NCBI RefSeq assembly: GCF_018881905.1
Contig: NZ_JACVPM010000002.1
Coordinates: 620,001 to 684,000, forward strand
Direction: 5' to 3'
Length of the DNA stretch: 64,000 bases
Source: Polynucleobacter sp. MG-27-Goln-C1
Lineage (GTDB): Bacteria > Pseudomonadota > Gammaproteobacteria > Burkholderiales > Burkholderiaceae
In this document: one piece after another, positions 15,081-34,099 of the stretch
How positions within the stretch are numbered: position 1 is the stretch's first letter
Layout: each line of letters begins with the position of its first letter
The notes under the pieces: generated by a model
Seen by the model: only the letters and a program-made list of their open reading frames with translations
What the model was told of the DNA's origin: nothing
Databases searched by the model: none
Position numbers and translations under genes: made by a program

Positions 15081-15710
15081 ATGGCGCTAATTGACCGCTT
15101 CATTATTGAGTTTGATACAGCCTTGCGCTCGGTAGTTGGGGGTGCTCATGCTCATCGCCCAACCCCAGGTTCGGATATTCAATCTACCGCTTTGCTAGAT
15201 GTCAAAGAACGAGAGCATGCTGCCGGATTAATGCGCGTCAATCATGTGGGTGAGGTCTGCGCTCAAGCCCTCTATCAATCGCAAAAAATAGTGGCCCGTA
15301 GTCCTGAAATTCGCCAGATGTTAGATCACTCTGCTCAAGAGGAAATGGATCACTTGGCTTGGTGTGAAACTCGCCTTCAAGAACTAGGTTCGCACACGAG
15401 TTATCTCAATCCAATTTGGTATGCAGGATCCTTTGCAATCGGCTTGGCTGCTGGCTTAGCGGGCGATAAGTGGAGCTTGGGATTTGTTGCGGAAACAGAA
15501 AAGCAAGTCGAAAATCATCTCGCAAGTCACCTCCAAAAATTGCCCGTAGAAGATGAGCGTTCTCGCGCCATTGTTGATCAAATGCGCATTGATGAAATCG
15601 AACATGGACAGGCTGCAATTTCTGCTGGAGGTGCGGTCTTGCCGGAGCCGATTCAGAAGCTAATGCAGGCGATGTCAAAAGTCATGACAAGCACTGCTTA
15701 CAAAATCTAA
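15081..15710 (+). CDS. coq7: 3-demethoxyubiquinol 3-hydroxylase (Coq7)
   Basis: Coq7 is a di-iron hydroxylase of late ubiquinone biosynthesis. The 209 residues show the repeated ferritin-like ligands: [12 protein letters not shown] with the first glutamate, [13 protein letters not shown] with Exx[14 protein letters not shown], and [11 protein letters not shown] as the second ExxH. The protein is an interfacial enzyme on the inner membrane, consistent with the hydrophobic stretch near residues 110-130. It follows bioB by 13 bases and precedes the dcw cluster after a 271-base gap. Length is normal for betaproteobacteria. Confidence 0.95.
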
Positions 15711-15746: not shown

Positions 15747-15766
15747 TACTGTTTATTAATACAGTA
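15747..15766. promoter_or_regulatory. LexA-type SOS box
   Basis: TACTGT (15747-15752) and ACAGTA (15761-15766) form perfect 6-bp arms around eight AT-rich bases. This fits the E. coli type LexA operator CTG-N10-CAG and the CTGT-N8-ACAG type used by betaproteobacteria. It lies 37 bases past the coq7 stop and 160 bases before the predicted mraZ -35. I see no convincing ORF of its own between it and mraZ, and no clear -10/-35 pair on it, so its target is open. Confidence 0.55.
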
Positions 15767-15925
15767 TATTTACCCATTATTGGGCTAAATAGCTAAGACC
15801 TATTCTTAAGTATATTTTCCAAGCCGTTGTTTCAAGTAGCATTTTTATAGTCACCATTTTATCAAGACATGACGCTAAGTGTTTGTAATCACTAGGAAAT
15901 TTCCTAAAAAATTACCCAAAAACAC

Positions 15926-15954
15926 TTGACCCTCTTATTGCGATCCTCTAAAGT
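15926..15954 (+). promoter_or_regulatory. predicted sigma-70 promoter of the dcw cluster
   Basis: TTGACC (15926-15931) and TAAAGT (15949-15954) are separated by exactly 17 bases. The first matches the -35 consensus in 5 of 6 positions and the second the -10 in 4 of 6. The start would be near 15961, giving a leader of only about 20 bases. It overlaps the MraZ repeats. Confidence 0.6.
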
Positions 15955-15978
15955 GGGAGGAAGTGTGAAAAAGTGGGG
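15953..15978 (+). promoter_or_regulatory. MraZ operator: three GTGGGA-type repeats
   Basis: GTGGGA, GTGTGA and GTGGGG start at 15953, 15963 and 15973, a strict 10-base period. Known MraZ sites are TGGGN repeats spaced by 5 bases, so this is the expected triple operator, with one imperfect middle repeat. It covers the presumed transcription start and ends just before the mraZ start codon, consistent with autorepression. Confidence 0.8.
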
Positions 15979-15981
15979 TAA

Positions 15982-16413
15982 ATGGTGTTTCAAGGTGCGT
16001 CAGCTCTCAATTTAGATGCAAAAGGCCGCATGTCTGTGCCGGCAAAGCATCGTGACGCCTTGTTAGTTCAAGGTGAGGGCCGAGTTACGCTCACAAAACA
16101 CCCCGATGGATGCCTCTTGTTGTTCCCCCGCCCTGAGTGGGAAACATTCCGTTCACGTGTCGCGCAATTGCCGATGGATGCCCATTGGTGGCGCCGAATC
16201 TTCCTTGGTAATGCTGCAGAGGTAGATTTGGACAGCGCAGGAAGAATTTTGGTGAGCCCAGAGCTCCGATCAGCTGCCGGCATTGAAAAAGAAGTGATGC
16301 TACTCGGCATGGGTAGTCATCTGGAATTGTGGGACGCCGCTACTTACGCTGCAAAAGAACAGGCTGCCATTGCACAAGGTATGCCTGAAGCCCTGAAGCA
16401 ATTTAATTTTTGA
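15982..16413 (+). CDS. mraZ: transcriptional regulator MraZ
   Basis: MraZ binds its own promoter region and represses the dcw cluster; it forms rings of AbrB-like subunits. The 143-residue product holds two SpoVT-AbrB units, near [17 protein letters not shown] and [16 protein letters not shown]. Many relatives begin M-FQGASAL, so the GTG at 15985 is an equally good start, giving a better distance from the GGGG at 15975-15978. The upstream repeats fit its known binding site. First gene of the cluster. Confidence 0.95.
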
Positions 16414-16425
16414 TGACAGGGTGCC

Positions 16426-17376
16426 ATGAACATAACTCATCGCCCAGTATTACTGGCCGAGGCGGTGACGGCGCTGATCAGTGGCCCACGCATCACCTCT
16501 CCCGAGGCATCAAAAAATTCACTCTTGATCGATGGAACCTTTGGGCGTGGCGGACATACGCAAGCACTGCTTTCACAATTGCCTCCGAGCGCGCGAATGA
16601 TTTCCTTCGACAAGGACTTGGATGCGATCGCAGTCGCGGAAAAAATCAACGATCCTCGTTTACGAATCGTGCACGACAGTTTTGCGCAGATGGATCAATA
16701 CGCAGAGCCAGAATCAGTCGATGGCATTTTGTTGGATCTTGGAATCAGCTCTCCACAAGTAGACGAAGCACATCGTGGATTTTCCTTTCGCAAGGATGGT
16801 CCGCTCGATATGCGCATGAACACGGATCATGGTTTGACAGCGGCAGAATGGTTGGAGCAAGCATCACAAGAGGACATCACGCGCGTGATTAAGACTTATG
16901 GTGAAGAACGTTTTGCATTTCAGATCGCAAAAGCTATCGTAGCTAAGCGAGAAGAGGGTTTGTCGCCAAAAACAACTTTGCAATTAGCAAGCTTGGTTGC
17001 CAGTGTCGTTCGCACAAGAGAAGTGGGACAAGATCCAGCCACTAGAACTTTCCAGGCACTACGCATTTTCATTAATCGCGAGTTAGAAGATCTTGAACTC
17101 GGATTAAAAGCTGCCCTCAATTTATTAAAGCCAGGCGCGCGCTTAGCAGTGATTAGTTTTCATTCGCTAGAAGATCGCATCGTTAAGCAATTTTTGCAGT
17201 CACATGCGAAGGTTGAGGTGCCTCGTGGTTTACCGGTCCGCGATAGGGATTTGCCGCAAAGTGCCCTAGAGATTATTGGACGCGTTAAGCCAAGTGATGA
17301 AGAAGTCCGAGAGAATCCTCGTGCACGTTCAGCCATCATGCGAGTTGCTGAAAAACGTGCGGGAGTTTCAACTTGA
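16426..17376 (+). CDS. rsmH: 16S rRNA (cytosine1402-N4)-methyltransferase
   Basis: RsmH (MraW) methylates N4 of C1402 in 16S rRNA with S-adenosylmethionine. The 316-residue product starts [14 protein letters not shown]. The SAM motif [14 protein letters not shown] is near residue 32, followed by [22 protein letters not shown] and [13 protein letters not shown], all family signatures. It is 12 bases after mraZ. A slightly overlapping long frame starting at 16410 in another phase is not real. Confidence 0.97.
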
Positions 17377-17639
17377 ATCGCGCTACGCTGACCTTACTTG
17401 TCTTGCTATTGGTCTGTGCCCTCTCTTTGGTTGCAGCCCAGCAGCGTGCGCGTAAATTATTTATCTCATTAGAGCGTGCGCAAATTGAAGAGCGCAAACT
17501 GAATCAAGATTGGTTGCGCTTAGAGTATGAGCAGCGCAACCTTTCTAAGTCGGCACGTATTCGTGATGTTGCGCGTAATCAATTGCACATGGTTCCTATT
17601 TCTCCAGAGCGTACTTTGTACTTGAAGGAGGCTAGATGA
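17373..17639 (+). CDS. ftsL: cell division protein FtsL
   Basis: FtsL is a bitopic divisome protein that works with FtsB and FtsQ to activate FtsWI. The 88-residue product has one membrane helix near residues 5-22 and a periplasmic coiled-coil. It starts with TTG; the TTG overlaps the rsmH stop as TTGA, and I see no ATG that would give a full protein. The weak codon and the overlap suggest that translation depends on rsmH. Its end overlaps the ftsI start by 4 bases. Confidence 0.93.
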
Positions 17640-19408
17640 GGCCGGTAGGTTTTTCAACTACGCCAAATTTAGTATTGCGTCTGCCAATGTGGCGGTCACG
17701 CCTGATGCTGTTCATGCTGTTCTTCGTCTTCATGTTGCTCTTAATTCGCGCCTTCTGGATTCAAGGTCCGGGAAATGCTTTCTATGAAGCTAAAGGTGTG
17801 CGCGGTACACAGCGAGAGTTGGAGTTGCCTGCTTCTCGTGGAAAAATATTGGATCGCAATGGCCAAGTGATTGCTACCAGCTTGGAGGCAAAGTCAGTGA
17901 TCGCCTATAACGACACTGTGCCTGATGATTTGGCTGCAGATAAAGTGCAGAAATTAGCGAGTCTTTTACAGATTAGCGAAGCAGAGTTGCGTAAAAAGCT
18001 AAGAGAAGAGCGTAAGCAAATTTTCTTGAAGCGCCAAGTAGACCCAGAAGTTGCGCAACAGATTAAGCAATTAGAAATTCCGGGCATTGGCTTAAATAAC
18101 GAATACCGTCGCTTCTATCCTGAGGGTGAGGCGATGGCGCACGTTGTTGGCTTTACCAATGTGGAAGATCGCGGTCAAGAAGGCATGGAGCTCTCTCGGG
18201 AAAAAGAGTTGGCTGGACATCCAGGTGCTCGTCGAGTGGTTGTGGATCGTCTAGGTCGTGTTGTTGAAGATGTTGCGATTTTGCAGTTGCCACAAAATGG
18301 TAAAGATTTGCAACTCTCTATTGATAGCAAGATTCAGTTTCTGGCTTACAACGCTGTTAAAAATGCAGTCGAACAGCATCATGCAAGTGCTGGTGGTGCA
18401 GTTGTACTGGATACCCAAACTGGCGAGATCTTAGCTTTAGCAAATTATCCAAGTTACAACCCGAACGATCGTAAGAAGTTGACGGGTGAGCAGTTGCGTA
18501 ATCGCGTTTTAACTGACACCTTTGAGCCTGGCTCAACGATGAAGCCTTTAACAGTAGCGATTGCTTTGGAGAAGGGGGTCATCACTCCTAGTACCAATAT
18601 GATGATTGGCGCTAAATATTTGGTTGGTCCAAAGCCGATTACAGATACCCATCCTTACGGCAACCTCACTGTGGCGCAAATTATTCAAAAATCGAGCAAT
18701 ATTGGTACGGCCAAAATTGCGATGAATAATTTATCCGCAGAAGAGATGTGGAATTTCTATACATCAGTTGGTTTAGGTCAGGCACCGAAGATTGGCTTTC
18801 CTGGTGCTGTAGCTGGCACTGTGCATCCCTTTAAAAAATGGATGCCAACAGACCAGGCGCGGATTGCGTTTGGTTATGGCATTTCAGGCTCACTCTTTCA
18901 GGTAGCTCGTGCTTACACGATTTTTGCACGTGATGGTGAATTGGTACCGCTCACGATTGAGCGTAGTCCAGAATTTAAGCCAGGTACACACATCATTTCT
19001 GCCAAGACGGCCATTGAGATGCGCAGCATGATGGAGTCAGTAACGGAGCCAGGTGGCACTGCCATTAAAGCGCAAGCTGAAGGTTATCGAGTTGGTGGAA
19101 AAACAGGTACAGCCCATAAATTGGTAGGTAAGGGATATGGGAATAAATACCGTGCTTACTTTGCGGGCTTAGCACCCATTAGTGCGCCACGCATTGTGGT
19201 GGCCGTCATGATTGATGAGCCGACTGGTGGCAGTCACTACGGTGGGGATGTTGCAGCACCAGTGTTTTCTACTATCGTGAGTGAGACTCTGCGCACCTTG
19301 AATGTCTTGCCAGATAGCCCTATTAAGCAGAAAGCAATGCAGGATCAAAGTCCCGCTGAAATACAGAGTGCCGCAGTCAAAACAAATACAGCGGTTTTAA
19401 AAAGATGA
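17636..19408 (+). CDS. ftsI: peptidoglycan transpeptidase FtsI (PBP3)
   Basis: FtsI cross-links septal peptidoglycan and partners with FtsW. The 590-residue class B penicillin-binding protein has a short cytosolic start, one membrane helix near residues 20-42, a dimerisation domain beginning at GTQRELELPASRGKILDRNG, and the transpeptidase domain. The active-site motifs are STMK with Ser300, SSN in SSNIGTAKI, and KTG in GGKTGTAHK. All three are intact. Overlaps ftsL and murE by 4 bases each. Confidence 0.97.
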   Translation: MRPVGFSTTPNLVLRLPMWRSRLMLFMLFFVFMLLLIRAFWIQGPGNAFYEAKGVRGTQRELELPASRGKILDRNGQVIATSLEAKSVIAYNDTVPDDLAADKVQKLASLLQISEAELRKKLREERKQIFLKRQVDPEVAQQIKQLEIPGIGLNNEYRRFYPEGEAMAHVVGFTNVEDRGQEGMELSREKELAGHPGARRVVVDRLGRVVEDVAILQLPQNGKDLQLSIDSKIQFLAYNAVKNAVEQHHASAGGAVVLDTQTGEILALANYPSYNPNDRKKLTGEQLRNRVLTDTFEPGSTMKPLTVAIALEKGVITPSTNMMIGAKYLVGPKPITDTHPYGNLTVAQIIQKSSNIGTAKIAMNNLSAEEMWNFYTSVGLGQAPKIGFPGAVAGTVHPFKKWMPTDQARIAFGYGISGSLFQVARAYTIFARDGELVPLTIERSPEFKPGTHIISAKTAIEMRSMMESVTEPGGTAIKAQAEGYRVGGKTGTAHKLVGKGYGNKYRAYFAGLAPISAPRIVVAVMIDEPTGGSHYGGDVAAPVFSTIVSETLRTLNVLPDSPIKQKAMQDQSPAEIQSAAVKTNTAVLKR

Positions 19409-20958
19409 TGGCAATGATTAATATCGAACCCCATCTCTTGATCTCTCATTTACGTGATCTCACATCAGCAGATGCAAAAGCAACTGCTGATAGTCGTCAA
19501 ATTCAATCTGGCGATATCTTCTTTGCATACCCTGTTGGTCATGGCAATGCCTTACGTGACGGCCGCGATTACATTGCAGCCGCCTTAGCAAATGGTGCGG
19601 CAGCTGTCGTATTTGATCCCGCAGATGGTGTTGCTAACGAATACTTAGATCGCTCAGAGTGTTTTGCTGTTGATAATTTATCCAGCTTAGCTGGAGAACT
19701 CTGTGCCGAGTGGTACGACTATCCAAGTAAACAGCTGAATGTTATCGGTGTTACCGGTACCAACGGAAAAACTAGTATTACTCAGTGGTTGGCGCAGGCT
19801 TTGTATGAATCTAACCATCGCACTGCAGTTTTGGGTACCTTGGGTACTGGCTTCCCGGGTGCATTGACCGAGACTGGCTACACCACACCCGATGCGCCGC
19901 GTTTACAGACTCAATTAAAAGAATTGCTTGATGCAGGTGCTCAGCAGGTGGCCATAGAGATCTCTTCTCATGCGCTTGATCAAGATCGCGTTTCTGGTTT
20001 GGATGTACGTACTGCGGTATTTACCAATTTGACTCAAGATCATTTGGATTATCACGGCACGATGGGTGAATATGCTGAGGCAAAAGCAAAGCTATTCCAA
20101 CTGCCTCAGCTTGAAAATGCCATCATCAATTTTGACGATACATTTGGGCGCGAATTAGCAATGAAGCTTCTCGCTGTTGACGGTCCTCAAGTATGGGGCT
20201 ACGCATTAAGCAGTAATGCATTTGCTGGATTTGAAAAATTTGGCGATCGTCTGAAACGTGCCTATACAGAAAAAACTCTGTTTACGAGTTCGGGATATGA
20301 ATCTCAATTTAACTGTGATGCGTCAGGTGCAAGCGCTGTTCAACTTGCAGTATTGGGTGAATTTAATCTGAGCAATTGCCTTGCTGTTTGGGCGGTTCTG
20401 TTGGCCCAAGGCTTGAGCACCAGTGAAGCCTCTAAGCGCATGAATAAGTTGAGTGCCGTTCCAGGTCGGATGGAACTGATTCGCTTAAATAAAACGCAGA
20501 GAACTGAGGGACCATTAATTGTTGTGGACTATGCACATACACCAGATGCTCTCACTAAAGCATTGAATGCATTGCGCCCCATTGCAAATCAACGTAACGG
20601 AAAAGTATGGTGTGTCTTCGGTTGCGGCGGTGATCGAGATTCAGGTAAGCGTCCACAAATGGGTCGTGCAGCGCAAGAGTTTGCTGATCATATTGTGATT
20701 ACGAGTGACAATCCCAGATCGGAAGATCCAGCTTCTATTATTGCCATGATTCAAGCTGGTATGTCAGGCGACCTATCGAATGTGCAAGCATTGCCCGATA
20801 GAGCAGCTGCCATTATGGCTGCGGTCCGACATGCCGACATCCAGGATATCGTTCTAGTTGCTGGTAAAGGACATGAGTCTACTCAAGAGATCAATGGCAA
20901 GAAATTTGATTTTTCTGATCAAGAGCATATTCGTTTGGCTGCAGGGGGTAGCGTATGA
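19405..20958 (+). CDS. murE: UDP-MurNAc-L-Ala-D-Glu:meso-diaminopimelate ligase
   Basis: MurE adds the third residue to the muropeptide. The 517-residue Mur ligase has the ATP loop GVTGTNGKTSITQW near residue 117. The DNPRSEDP motif near residue 435 is the known marker for meso-diaminopimelate rather than lysine, so the cell wall is predicted to be of the usual Gram-negative type. Three ATGs are available at 19405, 19408 and 19414. The first overlaps the ftsI stop as ATGA. Confidence 0.96.
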   Translation: MMAMINIEPHLLISHLRDLTSADAKATADSRQIQSGDIFFAYPVGHGNALRDGRDYIAAALANGAAAVVFDPADGVANEYLDRSECFAVDNLSSLAGELCAEWYDYPSKQLNVIGVTGTNGKTSITQWLAQALYESNHRTAVLGTLGTGFPGALTETGYTTPDAPRLQTQLKELLDAGAQQVAIEISSHALDQDRVSGLDVRTAVFTNLTQDHLDYHGTMGEYAEAKAKLFQLPQLENAIINFDDTFGRELAMKLLAVDGPQVWGYALSSNAFAGFEKFGDRLKRAYTEKTLFTSSGYESQFNCDASGASAVQLAVLGEFNLSNCLAVWAVLLAQGLSTSEASKRMNKLSAVPGRMELIRLNKTQRTEGPLIVVDYAHTPDALTKALNALRPIANQRNGKVWCVFGCGGDRDSGKRPQMGRAAQEFADHIVITSDNPRSEDPASIIAMIQAGMSGDLSNVQALPDRAAAIMAAVRHADIQDIVLVAGKGHESTQEINGKKFDFSDQEHIRLAAGGSV

Positions 20959-22403
20959 GTACGCCTATGACTACTCTCGCCCAAGTTCATGCCATGTTGC
21001 CGGGCAGTCAGTTGATTCATGCTGATGCAAAGTCTGCTGAAGGAATTTCTATTTCTCATGTTGGCAGTGATAGTCGTCAGATTCAATCCGGCGAATTATT
21101 TATTGCTTTGTCTGGCGATCGTTTTGATGCGCATGATTTCTTGGGTGATGTGGCAACAGCGGGAGCAAGTGCAGCGCTTATTAGCCATAAAGAAAAATGC
21201 CCTTCAAGCTTACCTGCAGTGTGTGTCCAGGATGTTAAACAGGGCTTGGGTGAGTTGGCAAAGGCATGGCGTGCACAGTTTTCTATCCCAGTAGCTTTAG
21301 TAACTGGATCTAATGGTAAGACCACTGTAAAAGAGATGATTGCTTCGATCTTCAAGGCTGCTGCCGGTGAAGGACAGACTCTAGTTACTAAAGGTAACTT
21401 CAATAATGATATTGGCCTACCTTTAACCTTGTTACGCATGCGATCAACCGATCGCCTAGCGGTGATTGAGTTGGGAATGAATCATCCTGGCGAAACAGCG
21501 GAGTTAGCCCTGATTGCTCAAGCCAATATTGCCCTTATCAACAATGCCCAGCGTGAGCATCAAGAATTTATGGCGACTGTAGAAGCGGTTGCAAAAGAGC
21601 ATGCAACTGCTTTGAGCGCACTTCCTGCGGATGGTGTTGCAGTATTTCCAGCGGACTCTGAATTCTCTTCGGTTTGGCATCAAGCTGCCGGAGGACGCAA
21701 GGTAATTGACTTTGCTTTATCTGCGGATTCGGCGTTAGTCAAAGCCTCTGTAACTGGAAAGTTATTAGCTAGCGGAAGAATTGAAATTTCAACTGAACTT
21801 GGCAAGCTTGAGGTTCAACTCAATACCTTAGGAAACCATAATGTGCGCAATGCTCTAGCGGCTAGCGCAGTTGCTTTAGGTGCTGGATTGAGTTTGGATC
21901 AAATCAAAGCCGGTCTGGAATCTTTTGTTCCGGTAAATGGACGCATGCAATCAAAGCCTTTGAATGCGGGTCGCACCTTGATTGATGATAGTTACAACGC
22001 GAACCCAGATTCTGTAAGGGCTGCTATTGATGCGCTTAAACAGTCTGGCAATGCTTCTTGGTTGGTATTGGGTGATATGGGCGAAGTAGGTGATCAAGGT
22101 CCTGCGTTCCATGAGGAAGTTGGAGCCTATGCTGCTGAGCAGGGAATAGTTAAGTTATTTGCGCTCGGAGAGCAGTGCAAATTTGCGGTGCAGGGCTTTA
22201 ATGATTCAGGAAAGACTCAGTCTGCTAGCAGTGCTACTCACTTCACCACGTTAGATCAGTTGCTTGAAGAGCTTAATGTGGCGCTCGCAGATCAAGAGTC
22301 AGGTAAGCAGTTGCACTTAGATATTTTGGTTAAGGGATCTCGTTTTATGCGTATGGAGCGTGTAGTACAGGCCTTATTAGAGGAGGCTAAAACATGCTCT
22401 TGA
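20955..22403 (+). CDS. murF: UDP-MurNAc-tripeptide:D-Ala-D-Ala ligase
   Basis: MurF adds D-Ala-D-Ala and completes the UDP-MurNAc-pentapeptide. The 482-residue Mur ligase shows [14 protein letters not shown] near residue 115, [20 protein letters not shown], and [12 protein letters not shown], which is specific for MurF. The start overlaps the murE stop as ATGA. Its substrate D-Ala-D-Ala would come from ddlB further down the cluster. Confidence 0.96.
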
Positions 22404-23563
22404 TATTGGCGCAATGGTTGCAGGATGATTTTGGATTCTTCCGAGTCTTTAACTACATCACTTTTAGAGCGGTTATGGCAACAGTGACTGCTTTGCTGAT
22501 TGGCTTGGCGGCTGGTCCATGGGTTATACGCAAGTTGACTGCATTGAAGATGGGTCAAGCGGTTCGTACGGATGGCCCGCAAACCCATTTAGTGAAATCA
22601 GGTACCCCAACAATGGGTGGCGTATTAATCCTTTTAGGTATTTTTATCTCCTGCATGTTGTGGGCTGATTTGAGCAATCGCTTTATTTGGATTGTGATGA
22701 TTGTGACCTTTGGATTTGGTTTGGTAGGTTGGGTTGATGATTACCGCAAAGTAGCGCGCAAAGATCCCAAAGGAATGGCCTCACGGGAAAAATTCTTTTG
22801 GCAGACTTTGATTGGATTATTTGCCGCTATTTATTTAGCCTTCTCCGTATCTGAAGTAAATAACCTCAAAGTCTTGCAATTATTCTTTGAGTGGCTCAAA
22901 AGTGGCTTCGCTTTGGATCTGCCGGCCAAATCAAACTTGCTCATTCCTTTTATGAAAGAGATTAGCTACCCACTGGGCGTAATGGGCTTCATCATTTTGA
23001 GTTACTTAGTTATTGTTGGCAGTAGTAACGCTGTGAACTTAACTGATGGTCTTGATGGCCTAGTCATCATGCCAGTGATATTGGTTGGTGCCGCTCTAGG
23101 CGCTTTTGCTTATGTGATGGGTAATGCAATTTACGCAAAGTATTTGCTATTCCCATACATTCCTGGGGCAGGTGAACTCATGATTTTCTGTGGTGCTATG
23201 GGTGGTGCGGGATTGGCATTCCTTTGGTACAACACGCATCCTGCTCAAGTATTTATGGGTGATGTTGGCGCACTCGCATTGGGTGGTGCACTCGGCACTA
23301 TTGCGGTGATTGTTCGCCAGGAAATTGTGCTCTTTGTTATGGGCGGAATCTTTGTGGCAGAAACACTGTCAGTGATGTTGCAAGTCTTTTGGTTCAAATT
23401 TACCAAGAAGCGTTTTGGTGAAGGCCGTCGTATTTTTAGGATGGCACCACTTCATCACCATTTTGAATTGGGTGGCTGGCGCGAAACACAAGTAGTAGTT
23501 CGTTTCTGGATCATCACCATTTTATTAGTTCTCATTGGCCTCTCCAGTCTGAAATTAAGGTAA
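22394..23563 (+). CDS. mraY: phospho-MurNAc-pentapeptide translocase MraY
   Basis: MraY transfers phospho-MurNAc-pentapeptide to undecaprenyl phosphate, making lipid I at the inner membrane. The 389-residue protein has about ten membrane helices. Diagnostic segments are [24 protein letters not shown] with the catalytic Asp pair, [24 protein letters not shown] and [11 protein letters not shown]. An AGGAGG ribosome-binding site lies inside the end of murF, and the two genes overlap by 10 bases. Confidence 0.98.
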
Positions 23564-23573
23564 GCCAAAGAAT

Positions 23574-25193
23574 ATGCATAACTTAGATCAAGCCTTCGCT
23601 AATCCAGCTCTCATCGCAGATGAGGGCTATCAAGCGCCTCAGCATTTCTTAATCTTAGGATTGGGGGAGTCTGGCTACGCAATGGCTAAGTGGTGTTTGC
23701 GGAACGCTGCTAAGGTTAGCCTAGCTGATACGCGTGATCGTGAAAAGCTAAATGAGCGCCAAAAAGCCTGGTTGGCCGATCTTGAATTTGCAGGGCTTCA
23801 AGAGGCCTTCTTTGGACCTCTTGATGACATTAATTTAAAGAATATTGATGTCATCGGAATTAGCCCTGGCTTATCTCCACTTCAAGAACCAATAGCTTCA
23901 TTCTTGGTTAAGGCGCAAGAATCTAGCATTGATATCTGGGGAGAATTGGAATTTTTTGCCAGAGCTATTGCTGCATTAGATCGCATGGCTCAAGTCGTAG
24001 AGTCTGACTATAAGCCAGCCTTATTAGCAATCACCGGAACAAATGGCAAGACAACTACGACTGCACTGACAGGTCAGTTGTGCGAGCGTGCCGGCAAGAG
24101 GGTTGCTGTTGCTGGAAATATCAGTCCAGCAGCTTTAGATAAGTTGATGTCTTGTCTAGATGAATCTGATCAGGTTGCTGATATGCCTGAGATTTGGGTG
24201 CTAGAACTCTCTAGCTTCCAATTGGTTTACACGAGCACCTTTAATGCAACGGCGGCAACTGTATTAAATATTACGCAAGATCACTTGGATTGGCATGGTG
24301 ATATGCAGGCCTATGTCGCTGCAAAAGCAAATATTTTTGGGCAAGACACTATCTGTATTCTGAATCGTGATGATTCACTGGTAATGAACCTCCTGACTGA
24401 CGAGCAAAAAGCAAATAAATCAGTTATTACTTTTGGCGCAAGCCGCCCTGATGAGCAGGGTGCCTTTGGCATTGAGCATGATCTTCGCGCCGGTGGTATT
24501 GATTGGCTAGTCTGGGCTGAGGTGGATGAAGAGCTTGAGCCTCAACCTAAGCGTCGTCGTAAAGCTGCCGCTGTAGAGGAAGAGCCATTAAGACTAAAGC
24601 GTTTAATACCTGCTGATGCTTTACGGATTCGTGGCCGCCACAATGCTTTAAATGCATTAGCTTCATTAGCCTTGGCACGCGCAGCTGGTTTGCCCATGAA
24701 TATGCTTTTACATGGTTTGCGTGACTACCATGGTGAACCACATCGTGTTCAAAGTGTTTCGATTGTGTCGAATGTTGAGTATGTGGATGACAGTAAGGGC
24801 ACCAATGTAGGGGCAACTGTAGCTGCGCTAAATGGTTTAAGTGCCAATGAATCTGGCAAGCGGATCTGGTTGATTGCTGGTGGTGAAGGTAAGGGCCAGG
24901 ACTTTAGCCCCTTACGTGATCCTGCACTGCGTTTTGTAAAAGGCGTTTTCCTGATTGGTAAGGATGCGCCAATTATTGCCGAGGCTTTGGCTGACTCAGT
25001 ACCCTGCGTAATGAGTGAGACTCTCCAAAACGCAGTGGCAGAAGCTGCAAAACATGCTCAGTCTGGCGATATTGTTTTACTTTCACCAGCTTGCGCTAGT
25101 TTTGATCAGTTCAGCGATTACGTGGCACGTGCCGAAGCATTCGTTGCTGAAGTTCAAGAGCTAGGAATGCAATTCGAAGGAGTCCATGCATGA
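23574..25193 (+). CDS. murD: UDP-MurNAc-L-Ala:D-glutamate ligase
   Basis: MurD adds D-glutamate to UDP-MurNAc-L-Ala. The ATP loop AITGTNGKTTTTALTG lies near residue 153. At 539 residues it is about 100 longer than the E. coli enzyme. Part of the excess is a charged insert near residues 312-345 with KRRRK at 326-330 flanked by Glu-rich stretches, joined to RLIPADALRIRGRHNALNA. I recall similar MurD inserts in Burkholderiales, so this is probably a lineage feature. The C-terminal domain with YVDDSKGTN is normal. Confidence 0.95.
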   Translation: MHNLDQAFANPALIADEGYQAPQHFLILGLGESGYAMAKWCLRNAAKVSLADTRDREKLNERQKAWLADLEFAGLQEAFFGPLDDINLKNIDVIGISPGLSPLQEPIASFLVKAQESSIDIWGELEFFARAIAALDRMAQVVESDYKPALLAITGTNGKTTTTALTGQLCERAGKRVAVAGNISPAALDKLMSCLDESDQVADMPEIWVLELSSFQLVYTSTFNATAATVLNITQDHLDWHGDMQAYVAAKANIFGQDTICILNRDDSLVMNLLTDEQKANKSVITFGASRPDEQGAFGIEHDLRAGGIDWLVWAEVDEELEPQPKRRRKAAAVEEEPLRLKRLIPADALRIRGRHNALNALASLALARAAGLPMNMLLHGLRDYHGEPHRVQSVSIVSNVEYVDDSKGTNVGATVAALNGLSANESGKRIWLIAGGEGKGQDFSPLRDPALRFVKGVFLIGKDAPIIAEALADSVPCVMSETLQNAVAEAAKHAQSGDIVLLSPACASFDQFSDYVARAEAFVAEVQELGMQFEGVHA

Positions 25194-26461
25194 GTTTGAA
25201 GGAAAAACTTTTTCCTGAGAATCGTTTGGGCCTTGGTCGCTTCTGGAATTTCTCCAGAGGCGGGATTGATAATTTCCGTAGCGGCTTGAGAGATGCGGTT
25301 TCTGGTGTTGAGCAAACTCGCTCACGCATGATGGACTATGACCAGTTGTTAGTTTGGGCGGTACTGTCTTTGGCTTTGATCGGTTTGGTCATGGTCTATT
25401 CCGCATCCATTACCCTGGCTGATGGTCCTAAGTACGCAAATTACAGTAGCAACTTCTTCTTAATTCGGCATTGCATTTCATTGGCAATTGCCATTGGTGT
25501 TGGTATTTGGGCATTCAAGATCCCAACCAAAGTTTGGGATCGTTATTCACCAGTCATTTTTGGCTTTACGGTTTTACTCTTAATTGCTGTTCTTATCCCT
25601 GGTGTGGGTAAGGGTGTAAATGGTGCGAAGCGTTGGATTCCATTGGGACTCATGAACTTCCAGCCATCTGAATTAATGAAATTTGCCGCGGTGATTTTTG
25701 CCGCAAGCTACACGGTGCAGCGCCAAGAGTATCTACACTCATTTGTTAAGGGCATGTTGCCAATGGGCATTGCGGTTGCATTGGTTGGTGGCTTATTAAT
25801 GGCTGAGCCAGATATGGGCGCATTCGTAGTTGTGGCTTTAATTGCATTTGGAATTTTGTTCTTAGGCGGTATTAGCGCTAAGTTATTTGGTGGTCTGATC
25901 TTGGTTGGCTTGCTGAGTGGTGCCACGATGATTGCCCTTTCACCATTCCGTCGTGGTCGCATGCTGGCGTTTATGGATCCATGGCAAGTCGACAATGCAG
26001 CAAATAAAGGTTATCAATTAACCCATTCACTCATGGCATTTGGACGTGGCGAATGGTTCGGCTTAGGCCTAGGTGGCAGTGTTGAAAAATTACATTACCT
26101 TCCTGAAGCGCATACCGATTTCATCATGGCTGTGATTGGTGAAGAGCTTGGATTCGTTGGCGTAGTAGTGATGATCTTCTTGTTCTATTGGATCGTACGT
26201 CGTGCATTCCTCATTGGCCGCACAGCGTTGCAATTGGATCGCAGTTTTGCTGGCCTTGCTGCTAAAGGTGTGGCGATATGGATTGGTTGGCAGGCATTTA
26301 TCAATATGGGTGTGAACTTAGGCTTGCTGCCTACCAAAGGCTTGACTCTTCCTTTGGTCAGTTATGGTGGTTCAGGAATTTTGATGAATGCAGTTGCGGT
26401 CGCTATGCTTCTGCGCATTGATTATGAGAACCGAATCTTGATGCGGGGTGGTAAGTTATGA
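25190..26461 (+). CDS. ftsW: septal peptidoglycan polymerase FtsW
   Basis: FtsW is the SEDS-family glycosyltransferase that polymerises septal glycan with FtsI. The 423-residue product has a cytosolic start of about 50 residues followed by about ten membrane helices. Segments VMVYSAS, KRWIPLGLMNFQPSELMK, EAHTDFIMAVIGEELGF and PLVSYGGSGILMN are the family signatures; the aspartate in HTDF is the residue thought essential. Overlaps murD and murG as ATGA on both sides. Confidence 0.97.
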   Translation: MSLKEKLFPENRLGLGRFWNFSRGGIDNFRSGLRDAVSGVEQTRSRMMDYDQLLVWAVLSLALIGLVMVYSASITLADGPKYANYSSNFFLIRHCISLAIAIGVGIWAFKIPTKVWDRYSPVIFGFTVLLLIAVLIPGVGKGVNGAKRWIPLGLMNFQPSELMKFAAVIFAASYTVQRQEYLHSFVKGMLPMGIAVALVGGLLMAEPDMGAFVVVALIAFGILFLGGISAKLFGGLILVGLLSGATMIALSPFRRGRMLAFMDPWQVDNAANKGYQLTHSLMAFGRGEWFGLGLGGSVEKLHYLPEAHTDFIMAVIGEELGFVGVVVMIFLFYWIVRRAFLIGRTALQLDRSFAGLAAKGVAIWIGWQAFINMGVNLGLLPTKGLTLPLVSYGGSGILMNAVAVAMLLRIDYENRILMRGGKL

Positions 26462-27531
26462 CTAAGCCATCTATCTTGATTATGGCCGGCGGTACTGGGG
26501 GACATATTTTCCCGGGCCTTGCTGTTGCTGAATATCTACGCATCTGTGGCTGGAAAGTTTTTTGGCTTGGCAATCAAGGCGGTATGGAATATCGCCTAGT
26601 AAAAGCTTGTGACTTCCCATTCGAGGCAGTTGAGTTTGGCGGTTTGCGTGGTAAAGGCATCAAAGCAAAATTGATGCTGCCATTTAATCTCGCAAGGGCG
26701 AGTGTTCAGAGTTTGAAGATCATGCGCCGTATCAAGCCAAATGTCGTTTTAGGTATGGGCGGGTACATTACATTCCCTGGCGGCTTGATGACGAAGTTTT
26801 TGAAGAAGCCATTGGTTCTTCATGAAGCAAATTCTGTAGCGGGAAGTGCTAATCGCGCTCTTGCCAAAATTGCTATGCGTACATTGACTGGCTTCCCAGA
26901 TACGATGGCTCATGCTGAATGGGTTGGCAATCCAATCCGTGAAGAATTTGAAGATGTGGGCGCACCAGCAAAGCGATATGAAACACGCACTGGACCTTTG
27001 TCGATCCTAGTAGTTGGTGGCAGCTTGGGTGCGGCAGCTTTAAATGAAGCAATTCCGGCAGCCTTGGCATTGATGGATAAAGACGCACGCCCTCAGGTGA
27101 TTCATCAGGCGGGCGATAAACATCTCGCAGATTTACAACAGCGTTATGCTGACTTAGCCGTTACTGCTGACATTCGTCCTTTTATTGACGACATGCCAAC
27201 TGCTTACGCTCAAGCAGATTTAGTGATCTGCCGCTCTGGAGCAATGACTGTTTCAGAAATCGCAGCGTGTGGTGTTGCATCCTGCTTGATTCCATTCCCA
27301 TACGCAATTGATGATCATCAGACTGCGAATGCGCGATTTTTATCGGATGCAGATGCAGCAATTCTGCTTCCACAACAAGATCTCAATCCGCAGGATCTCG
27401 CATCCATGATTCAAAACTTTAGCCGCCAAGATTTACAGGCGATGGCTGAACGTGCCCATACTTTGGCTAAGCCTCATGCAACTCAGCGTGTGGCTGAGGT
27501 ATGTGCAGACTGTGCAGGAGTAGGTATATGA
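26458..27531 (+). CDS. murG: lipid II synthase MurG
   Basis: MurG transfers GlcNAc from UDP-GlcNAc to lipid I on the inner face of the membrane. The 357-residue GT-B fold has the N-terminal loop [18 protein letters not shown], the [11 protein letters not shown] loop, and the C-terminal UDP site with VVGGSLGA and [16 protein letters not shown]. Length and motifs are normal. It overlaps ftsW and murC with ATGA junctions. Confidence 0.97.
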
Positions 27532-28964
27532 AACATATCGTTCAGCAAATACATTTTGTTGGTATTGGCGGCGCAGGCATGAGTGGTATTGCTGAAGTGC
27601 TTCTGAATCTGGGTTATCAAGTATCTGGATCTGACTTGGCTGAAGGTGCTGCTACTAAGCGTTTAACGGATTTGGGCGCAGTCATTCATATTGGGCATGA
27701 CCCTAAAAATATTGGTACTGCAGAGGCTGTAGTGATTTCTACTGCAGTTGCAGGCAACAATCCTGAGGTACTTGCTGCTCGCGCAGCTAAGGTGCCTGTG
27801 ATTCAACGTGCTGTCATGCTCGGTGAACTCATGCGTTTGAAGCAGGGCATTGCGATTGCAGGCACACATGGCAAAACAACCACAACCAGTTTAGTTGCCT
27901 CAGTATTGGCTGAGGGTGGATTGGATCCTACCTTTGTGATTGGTGGAAAACTAAATTCCGCAGGTGCTAATGCACGCTTAGGTCAGGGCGACTTTATTGT
28001 GGTGGAAGCGGATGAGTCTGATGCCTCATTCCTGCAATTATTCCCAGCGATGGAAGTAGTCACCAATATCGATGCTGATCATATGGATACCTATCAGCAT
28101 GACATGGCAAGGTTGAAGCAAGCGTTTGTCCAGTTCATTCAGCGTATGCCTTTTTATGGTGTTGCTGTGCTTTGTATTGATGATGCGAATGTTCGCGACA
28201 TTATTCCATTTGTGTCACAGCCAGTATTGCGCTATGGCTTATCTGAAGATGCGGATATTCGCGCAAGTAATGTGCGCGCTGAAGGTACTCGCATGCACTT
28301 TACGGTTGATCGTAAAACTGTACGCCGTCATGGCAATAAGCCAGGTCGACTTGAAGTGCAATTAAATTTACCGGGCTTACATAACGTTCGCAATGCCTTG
28401 GCGGCGATTGGTATTGCTACAGAGCTTGGTGTGGGTGATGAAGCTATTGTGAAGGCCTTGTCTGAGTTTAGTGGCGTTGGTCGCCGCTTCCAAAGATATG
28501 GAGAGATTCCTTTGGCATCTGGTGGAAGTTTCACGCTAATAGATGACTATGGACATCATCCTGTTGAAATGGCGGCTACCCTATCTGCAGCGCGTGGGGC
28601 ATATCCTGACCGACGCTTGGTATTGGCATTCCAGCCCCATCGCTTTACAAGAACGCGTGACTGCTTTGGTGAATTTGTACAGGTACTCAAAAACTTTGAT
28701 GCCCTTGTATTAACCGAGGTCTATCCCGCTGGCGAAGCTAAGATTCCAGGTGCTGATGGTCAAAGCCTCATGAAAGCAGCTCTGACAGTTGATAAAGCTT
28801 TAAAGGCCTCTTTAGATAGCTCAGCCGTGGCCTTTGCCCCTAGTGTTGCTGAGATGCCAGAAAAACTCAGTACTTTATTGCGTGATGGTGATGTATTAAT
28901 CACGATGGGCGCAGGATCTATTTCTGGATTGCCTCATGTATTGGCGGAGGCAAAGCATGTCTAA
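27528..28964 (+). CDS. murC: UDP-MurNAc:L-alanine ligase
   Basis: MurC adds the first residue, L-alanine, to UDP-MurNAc. I chose the ATG at 27528 ([25 protein letters not shown]), which overlaps the murG stop as ATGA; the frame is open nine codons further up. The 478-residue Mur ligase has the UDP-binding [10 protein letters not shown], the ATP loop [13 protein letters not shown] and [12 protein letters not shown]. The C-terminal domain has [10 protein letters not shown] and FQPHRFTRT. Length is normal. Confidence 0.97.
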
Positions 28965-29970
28965 GCAAAATCAACAAATGCTTTCTTGGGGTGAGCGAGT
29001 GAAGCAAGAACTCGCAAACCTAGATGTTCAATCTCTTGGTCGAGTCGGTGTATTGCTTGGCGGTCGTTCTGGTGAGCGTGAGATTTCCTTGATGTCGGGT
29101 AACGGCGTATTAGATGCGCTGCTCTCCAAAGGGGTTGATGCGCATCCATTTGACACAGGATTACGTTGCCCAACAGAATTGGCAAGTGAAAAGTTTGACC
29201 GCATCTTTATTTCCCTGCATGGACGTTATGGTGAAGATGGCACGATCCAGGGATTGCTTGAGCTATTGGGTTTACCTTATACCGGTAGCGGTGTACTGGC
29301 ATCTGCATTGGCGATAGACAAAATTGCAACTAAGCTTTTCTGGCTCAGTAGCAGTCTTTCAACTCCAGAATTTCAGGAGCTGAAAGCTGATAGCGATTGG
29401 AATGCGGTAGTGAAGCACTTAGGTTTGCCATTGATTGTCAAGCCAGCACATGAAGGCTCTTCACTTGGTCTGACTAAAGTGAAATCCGTCGACGAGTTGC
29501 CTGCCGCTTATAAGTTGGCTGCAGGGATGGATAAAAAGGTGATTGCTGAAACTTGTATTGTTGGCGATGAGTTAACTTGCCCATTGGTTGGATTTGGAGA
29601 AAATGCTGAGGCATTGCCTGTAATCAAAATCATTCCACCAGAGGCCAATTATGATTTCCACAATAAGTATTTTTCTGATGAGACTAAATACTTGTGCCCA
29701 ACTGGCTTAGCGCCAGAAGTCAATAAAGCGGTTCAAGATTTAGCCTTAGCTGCATATCGCACCCTCGGCTGTAAGACTTGGGGTCGTGCCGATGTGATGC
29801 TCGACCAAAAAACTGGCAAACCATATCTTTTGGAGATGAATACATCTCCTGGCATGACTTCACATTCTTTAGTTCCAATGGCCGCAAAAGCAGCGGGTGT
29901 TGAATATGCTGAATTAGTTCTCTGGGTCATTAGTCAAACCTTAAATACCAAAGGGGCTGCGCAAGCATGA
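28957..29970 (+). CDS. ddlB: D-alanine:D-alanine ligase
   Basis: Ddl makes D-Ala-D-Ala with ATP for MurF. The start at 28957 (MSKQNQQM) gives 337 residues and overlaps murC by 8 bases. An N-terminal extension of about 25 residues precedes [21 protein letters not shown]. The ATP-grasp segments are [16 protein letters not shown], the catalytic GRADVMLD and [12 protein letters not shown] with its metal-binding Glu and Asn. The protein ends near ELVLW. Length is a little above the E. coli DdlB. Confidence 0.96.
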
Positions 29971-30833
29971 GTCGGATGAGCGCTTTCCTAAACGGTTTCG
30001 GTGAAGTGTTTGCTTCACTGGCATCCCCACTTTGGAATCATCCAGAGCGGATGCAGAAGCTGAGCCGTTTCTTGATGCGCTGTTTCGCGGTTATGGTTTG
30101 CGTGGGAATTTTGGTGTGGTTAAGCCAGCGACCCGTCTTTGCATTGCGCCAAGTAGTGATTGAGCCGGTGGCTGGACAAACGCTCAAGCATATTAATAAG
30201 CCTGTAGTGAAGCAACAAGTCTTAGAGACGGTCCAAGGAAACTTCTTTAGCGTGAGATTAGAGGATGTGAAGCGTGGTTTCGAGTCTATGCCTTGGGTGC
30301 GTCATGCCAATGTTCGCAGAGTTTGGCCTAACGGATTAATTGTAAGTATTGAAGAGCAAAAACCATTTGGTACTTGGGGTGGGGCTGATAGTCATACCTT
30401 AATGAATACCCATGGCGAGCTTTTTGCTGGTCGTGTTTCTGATGTGGGAGACGGAATTCAGTTAATTGATTTCTCTGGACCGGAAGATACAAGCAAAGAA
30501 GTGATGCGCTTATATGAAAAAGCGAACGCTTGGTTTAAGCCTTGGAGTGCAGAGGTAAAAAGCTTAACCCTCTCCGAGCGCTATGCCTGGCATGTGAAGT
30601 TATCCAACGGCATGAAGGTGGAGTTCGGCAGGGATGAAGAGAACTCCGACAAAACATTAACTGAGGATCGTGTAGCGCGCCTCTTTAAGTATTGGCCGCA
30701 GGTTCAAGAGAAGTGGGCTAATCGCGTAGATGCAATTGATTTGCGCTATGCAAACGGTTTTGCAGTGCATCTTGCTTCGGCAAGTTTGAAAAAGAATGAA
30801 GCAGATGGCAAGAAAAGTGAGCAGAAGCAATGA
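29967..30833 (+). CDS. ftsQ: cell division protein FtsQ
   Basis: FtsQ links the cytosolic and periplasmic halves of the divisome through FtsB and FtsL. The 288-residue product has a cytosolic start, one membrane helix near residues 30-55, a POTRA domain ([11 protein letters not shown] to [22 protein letters not shown]) and an FtsQ beta domain. The basic Lys-rich tail is not part of the core. It overlaps ddlB as ATGA and ends just before ftsA. Confidence 0.95.
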
Positions 30834-30842
30834 GGAATGAGA

Positions 30843-32072
30843 ATGAGTAAAGACAACCGCGATTTATTGGTCGGATTGGATATTGGTACCTCCAAGGTGG
30901 TTGCTTTGGTTGCTGAATTGGCGCCGGATGGCCAATTCAATGTAGTTGGCGTTGGCCAAACTGCATCTAAAGGCTTGAAGAAGGGGGTAGTTGTCAATAT
31001 TGAGGCTACTGTCCAATCCATTCAAAAAGCACTAGAAGAAGCTGAGGTCATGGCAGATCGCCAGATCGTACAGGTCTTTACTGGCATTGCTGGAAATCAC
31101 ATTGTGAGCTTTAACTCCAGCGGTATGGTGGCCATTCGGGATAAAGAGGTCAGTGCTGGAGATGTTGAGCGCGTCTTAGAAACTGCTAAAGCAATCAACA
31201 TCCCTACGGATCAACAAATCCTTCACATCCTTGTTCAAGAATTCATTATTGATGGACAGGAAGATGTGCGTGAGCCAATTGGTATGAGTGGTTTGCGTCT
31301 AGAGGTAAAAGTGCACATTGTTACTGGTGCAGTTAGTGCTGCGCAAAATATTGTGAAGTGCGTGCGTCGTTGTGGCTTGGAAGTAAATGATCTCATCTTG
31401 CAGCCACTAGCATCTAGCTTAGCCGTCTTAACGGAGGACGAAAAAGAGCTGGGCGTTGTCTTAGTCGATATTGGTGGCGGCACAACCGACATCGCTATCT
31501 ATTGCCAGGGCTCCATTCGACATACTGCTGTGATTCCGATTGCAGGCGATCAAATTACCAATGACATTGCGATGGCATTGCGTACGCCGACGATTGATGC
31601 GGAAGATCTCAAGATTCAATACGGTATTGCTCGCCAAGATATGGCGGATCCAACCACCATGATTGATGTACCTGGTGTTGGAGATCGCGAACCACGCCCA
31701 ATGTCTAAGCAAGCTTTAGCGGCTGTCATTGAGCCGCGTGTAGAAGAGTTATTTACCTTGGTGCGTGGCGTAGTTCGTGATTCTGGTTACGAAGATATGG
31801 TGTCCTCAGGAATCGTACTAACGGGTGGAACTTCTTTGATGCCAGGCATGGTTGAGCTTGCTGAACAAGTGTTCTTGCGCCCAGCGCGTATCGGTACTCC
31901 TGAGTACCGTGGACACCTGCATGAAGTTTTGCGTAGCCCACGTTTTGCTACCAGTATCGGTTTATTAATGGAAGGCCAGGCGCAGTTGTTGCGTGGCCGT
32001 CGAGTATCGCAATCAGGCGCGTTGCAAAGTGTGATTTCGCGCATGAAGGAATGGTTCGCAGGAAATTTTTAA
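30843..32072 (+). CDS. ftsA: cell division protein FtsA
   Basis: FtsA is an actin-like ATPase that anchors FtsZ to the membrane. I chose the ATG at 30843 (MSKDNRDLLVGLDIGTSKV, 409 residues) because the AGGA at 30833-30836 is 6 bases before it, while the in-frame ATG at 30837 touches that AGGA. Motifs are DIGTSKVVALVAEL, VVLVDIGGGTTDIAIY and LTGGTSLMPG. The C-terminal amphipathic helix MKEWFAGNF for membrane attachment is present. Confidence 0.96.
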   Translation: MSKDNRDLLVGLDIGTSKVVALVAELAPDGQFNVVGVGQTASKGLKKGVVVNIEATVQSIQKALEEAEVMADRQIVQVFTGIAGNHIVSFNSSGMVAIRDKEVSAGDVERVLETAKAINIPTDQQILHILVQEFIIDGQEDVREPIGMSGLRLEVKVHIVTGAVSAAQNIVKCVRRCGLEVNDLILQPLASSLAVLTEDEKELGVVLVDIGGGTTDIAIYCQGSIRHTAVIPIAGDQITNDIAMALRTPTIDAEDLKIQYGIARQDMADPTTMIDVPGVGDREPRPMSKQALAAVIEPRVEELFTLVRGVVRDSGYEDMVSSGIVLTGGTSLMPGMVELAEQVFLRPARIGTPEYRGHLHEVLRSPRFATSIGLLMEGQAQLLRGRRVSQSGALQSVISRMKEWFAGNF

Positions 32073-32107
32073 GTTTTTCGTCGTCGTCAATGTAGTACTT
32101 ATTACCT

Positions 32108-32114
32108 AGGAGGG
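32108..32114 (+). promoter_or_regulatory. strong ribosome-binding site of ftsZ
   Basis: AGGAGGG just before the ftsZ ATG is the strongest Shine-Dalgarno match I saw in the dcw cluster. Most upstream genes depend on overlap coupling, whereas ftsZ has its own strong site and a 45-base spacer after ftsA. This fits its need for higher output. Confidence 0.7.
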
Positions 32115-32117
32115 TAT

Positions 32118-33458
32118 ATGGAATTTGAAATGTTAGATCAAGAAACAGCCGGCAAAACCATTATTAAAGTGGTTGGAGTTGGTGGTGCAGGTGGTAATGC
32201 AGTTCAGCACATGATTCGTCGCGGTGTTAACGGCGTAGAGTTTATTTGCATGAACACCGATGCTGGCGCTTTACAGCGTTCTGAGGCATCTGTGAATTTG
32301 CAACTAGGCTCTAGCGGACTCGGTGCTGGTGCAAAACCTGAAATCGGTGCAGCTTCTGCTGAAGAAGCGCGTGCACGTATTGCAGACACATTGCAAGGTG
32401 CACACATGGTGTTTATCACTGCTGGTATGGGTGGTGGCACAGGTACTGGTGCAGCGCCAATCGTTGCTCAAGTTGCTAAAGAGATGGGTATTTTGACTGT
32501 TGGCGTTATCAGCAAGCCATTTGACTTTGAAGGCGTTAAGCGTTTGAAGGTTGCTGAAAATGGAGCTTCTGAGCTCGAGTCTTATGTAGATTCATTGATC
32601 GTAGTTCTCAATGAGAAATTGTTCGAAGTGATGGGTGAAGATGCTGAGTTTGATAAGGCATTCGCATGTGCTGATGATGTATTGCATAACGCTGTTTCAG
32701 GTATTGCGGAAATCATTAACGTACAAGGGTTGATCAACGTCGACTTTGAGGACGTGAAAACAGTGATGGGCGAACAAGGCAAGGCGATGATGGGAACTGC
32801 AACAGTTTCTGGCATGGATCGTGCACGTTTAGCTGCTGAAGCTGCAGTTGCATCACCATTGCTCGAAGGTGTTGATTTGTCTGGTGCACGTGGCGTATTG
32901 GTGAATATCACTGCTAGCCGTTCATTGAAGTTGTCTGAGACTCGTGAAGTGATGGCAGCGATTCGTGGCTATGCTGCAGATGATGCTACTGTGATCTTTG
33001 GTACCGTATATGACGAGAGCTTAGGTGATGCCTTGCGCGTTACTGTGGTGGCTACTGGCTTGAATAATCCACAAGCACGTCAACATCATCAACCAGAAGT
33101 AGTTTGGAGACAAGCTACTGGTACGCATGATGCGATGCCAACAATGGCTGACTTGAATAGCTTTGCTCCAGCAAGTGCTTCAGCAGCAATGAGCAAGGTA
33201 AGTCTTGATTCAGCTTTGAGCACTAGCGCTGGTTTGGCAATGACAGGTGCTGGTAGTGCGCCTTCAATGGCTGCTCAACCAGCAACCAGCGGAGTCGATT
33301 ACAGCCAATATGATTTGCCACGCGTATTCCGTAGTTCGCGTGAAGCTACACCAGCCCCTACATTAGGCGCTGATAGCTCACCACAGGCAAAAACCATGTT
33401 GGATAAAGGGGCTGATTACTACGAAATCCCAGCCTTTTTACGTAAGCAAGCAGACTAA
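32118..33458 (+). CDS. ftsZ: cell division protein FtsZ
   Basis: FtsZ is the tubulin-like GTPase that forms the division ring. The 446-residue product has the nucleotide-binding segments [15 protein letters not shown] and [15 protein letters not shown], the T7 loop in [14 protein letters not shown], and a variable Ala/Ser/Pro-rich linker near residues 325-430. The C-terminal conserved peptide [12 protein letters not shown] binds FtsA and other partners such as ZapD, whose gene is also in this window. The linker is long compared with E. coli FtsZ (383 residues). Confidence 0.98.
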
Positions 33459-33489
33459 ACCACTGCTCAATACAATATGTAGTTGCAGA

Positions 33490-33540
33490 ATGCCAGCGCG
33501 GCGCCCCTCCGGACGACGAATCCCGCGCTAGCGTTGGCAT
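33490..33540. repeat. large GC-rich inverted repeat between ftsZ and the peroxiredoxin gene
   Basis: ATGCCA (33490-33495) plus GCGCGG (33496-33501) pair with CCGCGC (33523-33528) and TGGCAT (33535-33540). A 6-base bulge, TAGCGT, sits on the 3' arm, and the loop is GC-rich. No T-run follows, so a simple intrinsic terminator is unlikely; it may protect mRNA ends or be a REP-like element. Confidence 0.55.
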
Positions 33541-33570
33541 ACTCATGACAACTATTTCATTGGAGATCTT

Positions 33571-34071
33571 ATGATCGCAGTCGGACAAAAATTACCAAAC
33601 GCTACTCTTTATGAGTTTTTAGATGAAGCTAGTGAAGGTTGCGCTATTGGCCCAAACGCATTCGAAGTTGAAAAACTCACCGCTGGCAAAAAGATTGTGA
33701 TCTTTGCTTTGCCTGGCGCATTTACACCGACTTGTTCAGCAAAGCACGTTCCTAGCTATGTTGAGCACTTTGATGCAATCAAAGCAAAAGGTGTCGATGA
33801 AATTTGGTGCATCTCAGTAAACGACCCATTTGTAATGGGTGCTTGGGGACGAGATCAAAAAGTTGGTAAAAAGATCCGTATGTTAGGTGATGGTAGCGCC
33901 GAGTTCACTAAGAAACTTGGTCTCGAATTGGATTTGACTGCTCGTGGTTTGGGTGTTCGTTCAGATCGTTATGCCATGATTGTTGAAGACGGTGTAGTAA
34001 CAACTTTAGATCGTGAAGCACCTGGCAAGTTTGAAGTGAGTGATGCCGCTTCAATTTTGAAGAAGCTTTAA
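33571..34071 (+). CDS. peroxiredoxin (Prx5-type)
   Basis: This 166-residue thiol peroxidase reduces hydrogen peroxide and alkyl peroxides. The active-site segment [19 protein letters not shown] holds the peroxidatic cysteine near residue 51 with the conserved Pro and Thr. A second cysteine (WCISVN) lies near residue 73 and could matter for the resolving step. The gene stands between ftsZ and lpxC, a placement I recall from other Burkholderiales. No OxyR-type site was recognised upstream. Confidence 0.93.
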
Positions 34072-34099
34072 GAAATTATTCCTGAATTTAGATAAAACC

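Follow-up and report, generated by a model that had tools for sequence, protein, structure and literature searches.

Organization of the coq7-mraZ region

The window, i.e., the whole stretch of 64,000 nucleotides from the freshwater bacterium Polynucleobacter sp. MG-27-Goln-C1 that was analyzed, carries coq7 and, downstream of it on the same strand, the dcw cluster starting with mraZ (Table 1). Of the remaining dcw genes, rsmH, ftsL, ftsW, ftsA, ftsZ and lpxC gave profile matches above cut-off, and the FtsI- and FtsQ-like proteins scored below theirs. The 271-bp gap between coq7 and mraZ contains several conserved elements. The main mraZ promoter was found as a single consensus match in the promoter scan, for which 1.2 matches were expected in shuffled sequences, yet it is strongly conserved genus-wide. 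The repeats at this promoter are likewise conserved and have the layout of MraZ operator repeats. Further upstream lies a near-palindrome with the consensus CTAAGTG[T/A]TTGTAA[A/T]CACTAG, which has CTTGTAATTACAAG-like counterparts in those Polynucleobacter genomes that do not possess the LexA box described below and TAAGTCCTTGTTCTAACAAACAAA-like counterparts in other Burkholderiaceae. Judged by this distribution, the near-palindrome is older than the box and looks like the site of a family-wide regulator of the dcw cluster. The block with the inverted repeat TAAGA-N5-TCTTA is also still recognizable in clades without the box.

Table 1. Features of the coq7-mraZ region and the dcw cluster in the window, and the lexA gene encoded elsewhere in the genome.
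Feature	Position	Strand	Basis or remark
coq7	15081..15710	+	NF033656, 330.6 bits (cut-off 180); ends 36 bases before the box
LexA operator (SOS box), TACTGTTTATTAATACAGTA	15747..15766	.	12/12 arm bases; same-genus conservation
-10-like TATATT of the proposed SOS promoter, overlapping the box at its right end	15765..15770	+	Hexamer conservation; inferred start at about 15777
Conserved block with TAAGA-N5-TCTTA inverted repeat (15794-15808), putative factor site	15789..15834	+	Near-constant spacing from the box
Conserved near-palindrome, CTAAGTGTTTGTAATCACTAG region, putative factor site	15873..15897	+	Upstream of the main mraZ promoter
Main mraZ promoter, TTGACC-17-TAAAGT	15926..15954	+	Consensus match; genus conservation
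Repeats AAAGTGGG (15950-15957, 15970-15977)	15950..15979	+	MraZ operator repeat layout; conserved
mraZ, first dcw gene, proposed first target	15982..16413	+	TIGR00242, 115.3 bits (cut-off 98.35)
Rest of dcw: rsmH, ftsL, ftsI-like PBP, mur genes region, ftsW, ftsQ-like, ftsA, ftsZ, lpxC	16426..35014	+	
lexA	G000:C1:100441-101100	-	TIGR00498, 229.9 bits

A LexA operator upstream of mraZ

A preliminary description of this DNA had noted a LexA-type SOS box in the gap, and its coordinates, arms and AT-rich spacer of 8 bases all proved correct. The assignment to the operator layout of E. coli and betaproteobacteria was borne out as well, with all arm bases of TACTGT-N8-ACAGTA matching and a matrix score in the range of established sites. 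For this, a LexA matrix was built from 16 recA/umuD/lexA-type sites, excluding the sites from coq7-mraZ gaps; the box scored 28.7 bits, within the training range of 26.5-31.5 bits, and the runner-up among the non-overlapping sites of the window reached 9.0 bits. It is the sole perfect TACTGT-N8-ACAGTA in the window. Looser definitions are less telling: with up to two mismatches allowed the window holds 2 sites versus 1.34 expected, which is ordinary for its size, and the core CTGT-N8-ACAG alone was seen once versus 0.67 expected, which falls short of significance. Across the 2,009,108 bases of the genome, three sites were found with at most one mismatch, every one of them perfect, and the reversed control pattern gave six, so that the pattern is discriminating at the perfect level only, at which the genome has three sites versus one for the control. 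Summed over 37 same-genus genomes, there are 108 perfect sites versus 4 for the control. The three perfect sites of the 2.0-Mb genome are located upstream of umuDC, upstream of recA and in the coq7-mraZ gap. By chance about 0.15 perfect sites would be expected per genome and 2.9e-5 in the gap, and among 20000 versions of the gap generated with a first-order Markov model a perfect site occurred in none and a best site with one mismatch in 11. Together with the conservation reported below, this makes it near certain, as far as sequence can tell, that the box is a LexA operator.

The distance from the box to the start codon is 11 bases at umuD, 70 at recA and 215 at mraZ. The lexA gene itself is preceded by a weak site only (TGCTGTATACAATCCCAGTA, two arm mismatches, 9.3 bits), weaker than the mraZ box. 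Furthermore, three other genomes (G031, G029 and G005) were observed to carry a perfect LexA box, each found in that one genome, without an adjoining recognized SOS gene.

The genome encodes a LexA repressor, whose presence the preliminary description had left to be checked (Table 1). The protein aligns with LexA chains of the PDB across the DNA-binding and cleavage regions, and its stretches SANAAEEHL and VAAGSP read SPNAAEEHL and VAAGEP in the PDB chains. Within the genus, 135 of 151 genomes match TIGR00498 above cut-off. This also holds for 24 of the 26 genomes without the box, so that its lack there is not due to a want of LexA.

Conservation and origin of the box

The gene mraZ was located in 148 of the 151 genus genomes; upstream DNA was taken for 144 and was readable for 142, and as four of these loci end 182 bases or less from mraZ, 138 gaps were scored. 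The box is present in 112 of these 138 gaps, in 80 of them perfect, in 26 with one and in six with two mismatches, so that the conservation in sister genomes for which the preliminary description had asked is indeed found. The other 26 gaps have best sites with four to six mismatches, and a best site with three mismatches occurs in none of the 138. The unbroken core CTGT-N8-ACAG is found in 104 of the 112 box genomes. Counted from the FQG codon of mraZ, the box starts at -241 in 77 and between -238 and -243 in 108 of the 112; in the window it starts 235 bases before the mraZ ATG. Its position is thereby nearly fixed, while the DNA to the left of it has drifted. The weighted frequency of the majority base is 0.96 in the arms, 0.74 in the spacer and 0.48 in the left flank, the figure for the arms coming from genomes that were picked for having the box, and in a ranking by the contrast between arm and spacer conservation the box was not among the six best positions. 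The gap in mismatch counts between two and four and the fixed position are thus stronger points than arm conservation.

A second, independent collection comprised 80 loci, 76 of them readable and 16 of these from other genera. Here, the box was found in 50 of the 76 loci (41 perfect), the carriers including P. bastaniensis, P. sinensis, P. sphagniphilus, P. yangtzensis, P. parvulilacunae, P. finlandensis, P. brandtiae, P. alcilacus and P. hirudinilacicola; 10 loci from Polynucleobacter or unnamed bins and the 16 loci from other genera, including Cupriavidus, Trinickia and Paraburkholderia, are boxless. MraZ of the window matches this collection with identities of 99-100%, which agrees with its assignment to Polynucleobacter. 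In one genome of the genus (G016), which is without a perfect LexA site genome-wide, the mraZ box has two mismatches and mraZ was matched in two pieces, as if box and gene were both decaying.

A quick maximum-likelihood tree was calculated from the coq7 and mraZ parts of 142 rows (111 with box, 25 boxless, 6 outgroup); it carries long-branch warnings, chiefly on the outgroups. All 111 box genomes lie on one side of a single branch (SH-aLRT 99), requiring one change, which suggests that the box was gained once within the genus and was retained afterwards in the main clade. Outside the genus, 36 readable Burkholderiaceae genomes, out of 99 non-genus genomes with an mraZ match and with 3 of 20 in the second set having no readable mraZ start, contain no box. 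An ancestral LexA box in these outgroups was considered and rejected: at 19 of 19 loci the best site has four to five mismatches, and at the further 17 readable loci three to five. Several outgroup genera show a recurring element YACYTTCACAA...AGTA some 250-266 bases upstream of the mraZ FQG codon, i.e., near the place that the box has in Polynucleobacter (L214-L216, L223, L228 and several of L193-L211); this element is no LexA site.

A promoter-like element on the box

At its mraZ-facing edge the box overlaps a -10-like hexamer, which reads TATATT in 80 and fits TANNNT in 87 of 111 box genomes. The stretches TATATT and ATTAT (15776-15780), located between the box and the TAAGA block, are more conserved than their neighboring bases, and the second coincides with the proposed transcription start. 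The same overlapping TATATT is present on the umuD box and is missing from the recA box. The -35 region is weak: at a spacing of 16-18 nucleotides the best hexamer matches at five of six positions in three of the 111 genomes, at four in 27 and at three or fewer in 81, and the promoter scan listed no promoter on the box. A minus-strand promoter facing coq7 was considered and rejected, since the left flank is unconserved and TANNNT occurs at the mirrored position in 40 genomes, as against the 87 on the mraZ side. The putative LexA-repressed promoter, which we consider likely, would overlap the box and be directed at mraZ.

Proposed regulation and alternative explanations

The reading that we favor, with moderate confidence, is that the operator represses a second, upstream dcw promoter that reads into mraZ. 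LexA dimers would occupy the box and thereby mask the -10 hexamer; upon DNA damage, RecA-driven cleavage of LexA would free the upstream promoter, and a transcript starting near 15777 would cross about 205 nucleotides of the gap, main mraZ promoter included, and continue into mraZ and the genes for division. DNA damage would then probably alter the reading of the division genes.

It is conceivable, if rather speculative, that in this genus, seemingly devoid of SulA, MraZ itself serves as an SOS brake on division. In E. coli, MraZ overproduction reportedly blocks division, as Eraso et al. are said to have found in 2014. The upstream promoter would first raise MraZ, MraZ would then shut the main dcw promoter via the GTGGG repeats, and septation would pause until LexA returns, by a link gained once and kept in the main clade.

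The preliminary description had proposed a link between SOS response and division without SulA, and this idea stands in part. A match to SulA (PF03846) above cut-off was not found in 37 same-genus genomes, the one sub-threshold match (G015) reaching 20.2 versus 23.1 bits; there is no dedicated SulA-type inhibitor gene under the box and no open reading frame in the gap common to the box genomes, and the -10-like hexamer points toward mraZ. The route via an own small RNA, offered in the same description, found no support and is dealt with below.

An explanation that we regard as possible, if distinctly less probable than a promoter on the box, is that LexA binds without a promoter of its own and acts either as a roadblock to bio-coq7 read-through or by contact with a factor at TAAGA-N5-TCTTA or with the main mraZ promoter. 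The weak -35 region would fit this, as would the lack of any terminator-like site between 15600 and 16100. Moreover, the distance from the end of the box to the CTAAGA block, which among the 112 box genomes is 27 bases in 92, 26 in 14, 28 in one, 37 in three, 16 in one and unread in one, shows large changes of +10 and of -11, each roughly a full turn of the helix, as would suit two proteins facing the same side of the DNA. However, these large changes go back to two independent-looking events only, and the extra conservation of TATATT and ATTAT is better explained by a promoter.

That the box drives a separate gene within the gap, for a small RNA or a small protein, is improbable. The conserved blocks between box and mraZ could be read in its favor, but these recur in boxless genomes; a box-coupled leader was dropped for the same reason, and conservation of the blocks is thus no evidence for an SOS transcript. 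In an Rfam scan, the two matches between 15600 and 16200 both stayed far below the gathering score, no open reading frame of at least 9 amino acids is common to all 112 box genomes (the best occur in 70 on the plus and in 84 on the minus strand), a consensus fold of 36 representatives has seven pairs, none with compensatory change, and a terminator is missing. A chance or inert match is very improbable: loose sites are frequent, as the six control sites within one mismatch illustrate, but a perfect site in the gap is hardly expected and a whole clade keeps it at a fixed position.

Comparison with known systems

Within the genome, the closest comparison is with the LexA-repressed promoters of recA and umuDC, which have operator arms identical to those of the mraZ box, with umuD sharing TATATT as well; the mraZ box differs in that it lies much farther from its gene, with a second promoter in between. 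A search of the openly licensed literature, by titles and the beginnings of abstracts, found nothing on this regulon for SOS or LexA in Polynucleobacter.

In other bacteria, LexA control of mraZ or the dcw cluster is already on record. For E. coli, PMC3265435 lists LexA repression at three SOS boxes among the means of dcw regulation; in E. coli K-12, the best site within 734 bases upstream of mraZ has four arm mismatches, and the boxes referred to in that paper were not located there. Compared with the E. coli dcw boxes, the Polynucleobacter site is perfect and was apparently gained within the genus. For gut Gram-positives, PMC3998124 describes a gel shift in which B. subtilis LexA binds an mraZ promoter site from a metagenome; likewise mraZ is the LexA target, with the difference that motif and hosts are Gram-positive there, whereas here a betaproteobacterium carries the E. 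coli-type motif. MraZ is described in PMC8475190 as a repressor of its own cluster, the loss of which has no evident phenotype in E. coli. In Corynebacterium glutamicum, according to PMC5055667, mraZ mRNA drops after ciprofloxacin, so that mraZ would not be raised by damage everywhere.

A clear betaproteobacterial case thereby joins the scattered reports of LexA control of mraZ and dcw. How the SOS response is coupled to division without SulA is an open question in many bacteria, and in Polynucleobacter one operator, with one inferred gain, sets a large clade apart from sister lineages without the box in the same genus, so that both sides can be compared. SulA, YneA, DivS and Rv2719c, which would likewise couple the SOS response to division, are dedicated inhibitor proteins, and no such gene lies at the mraZ box.
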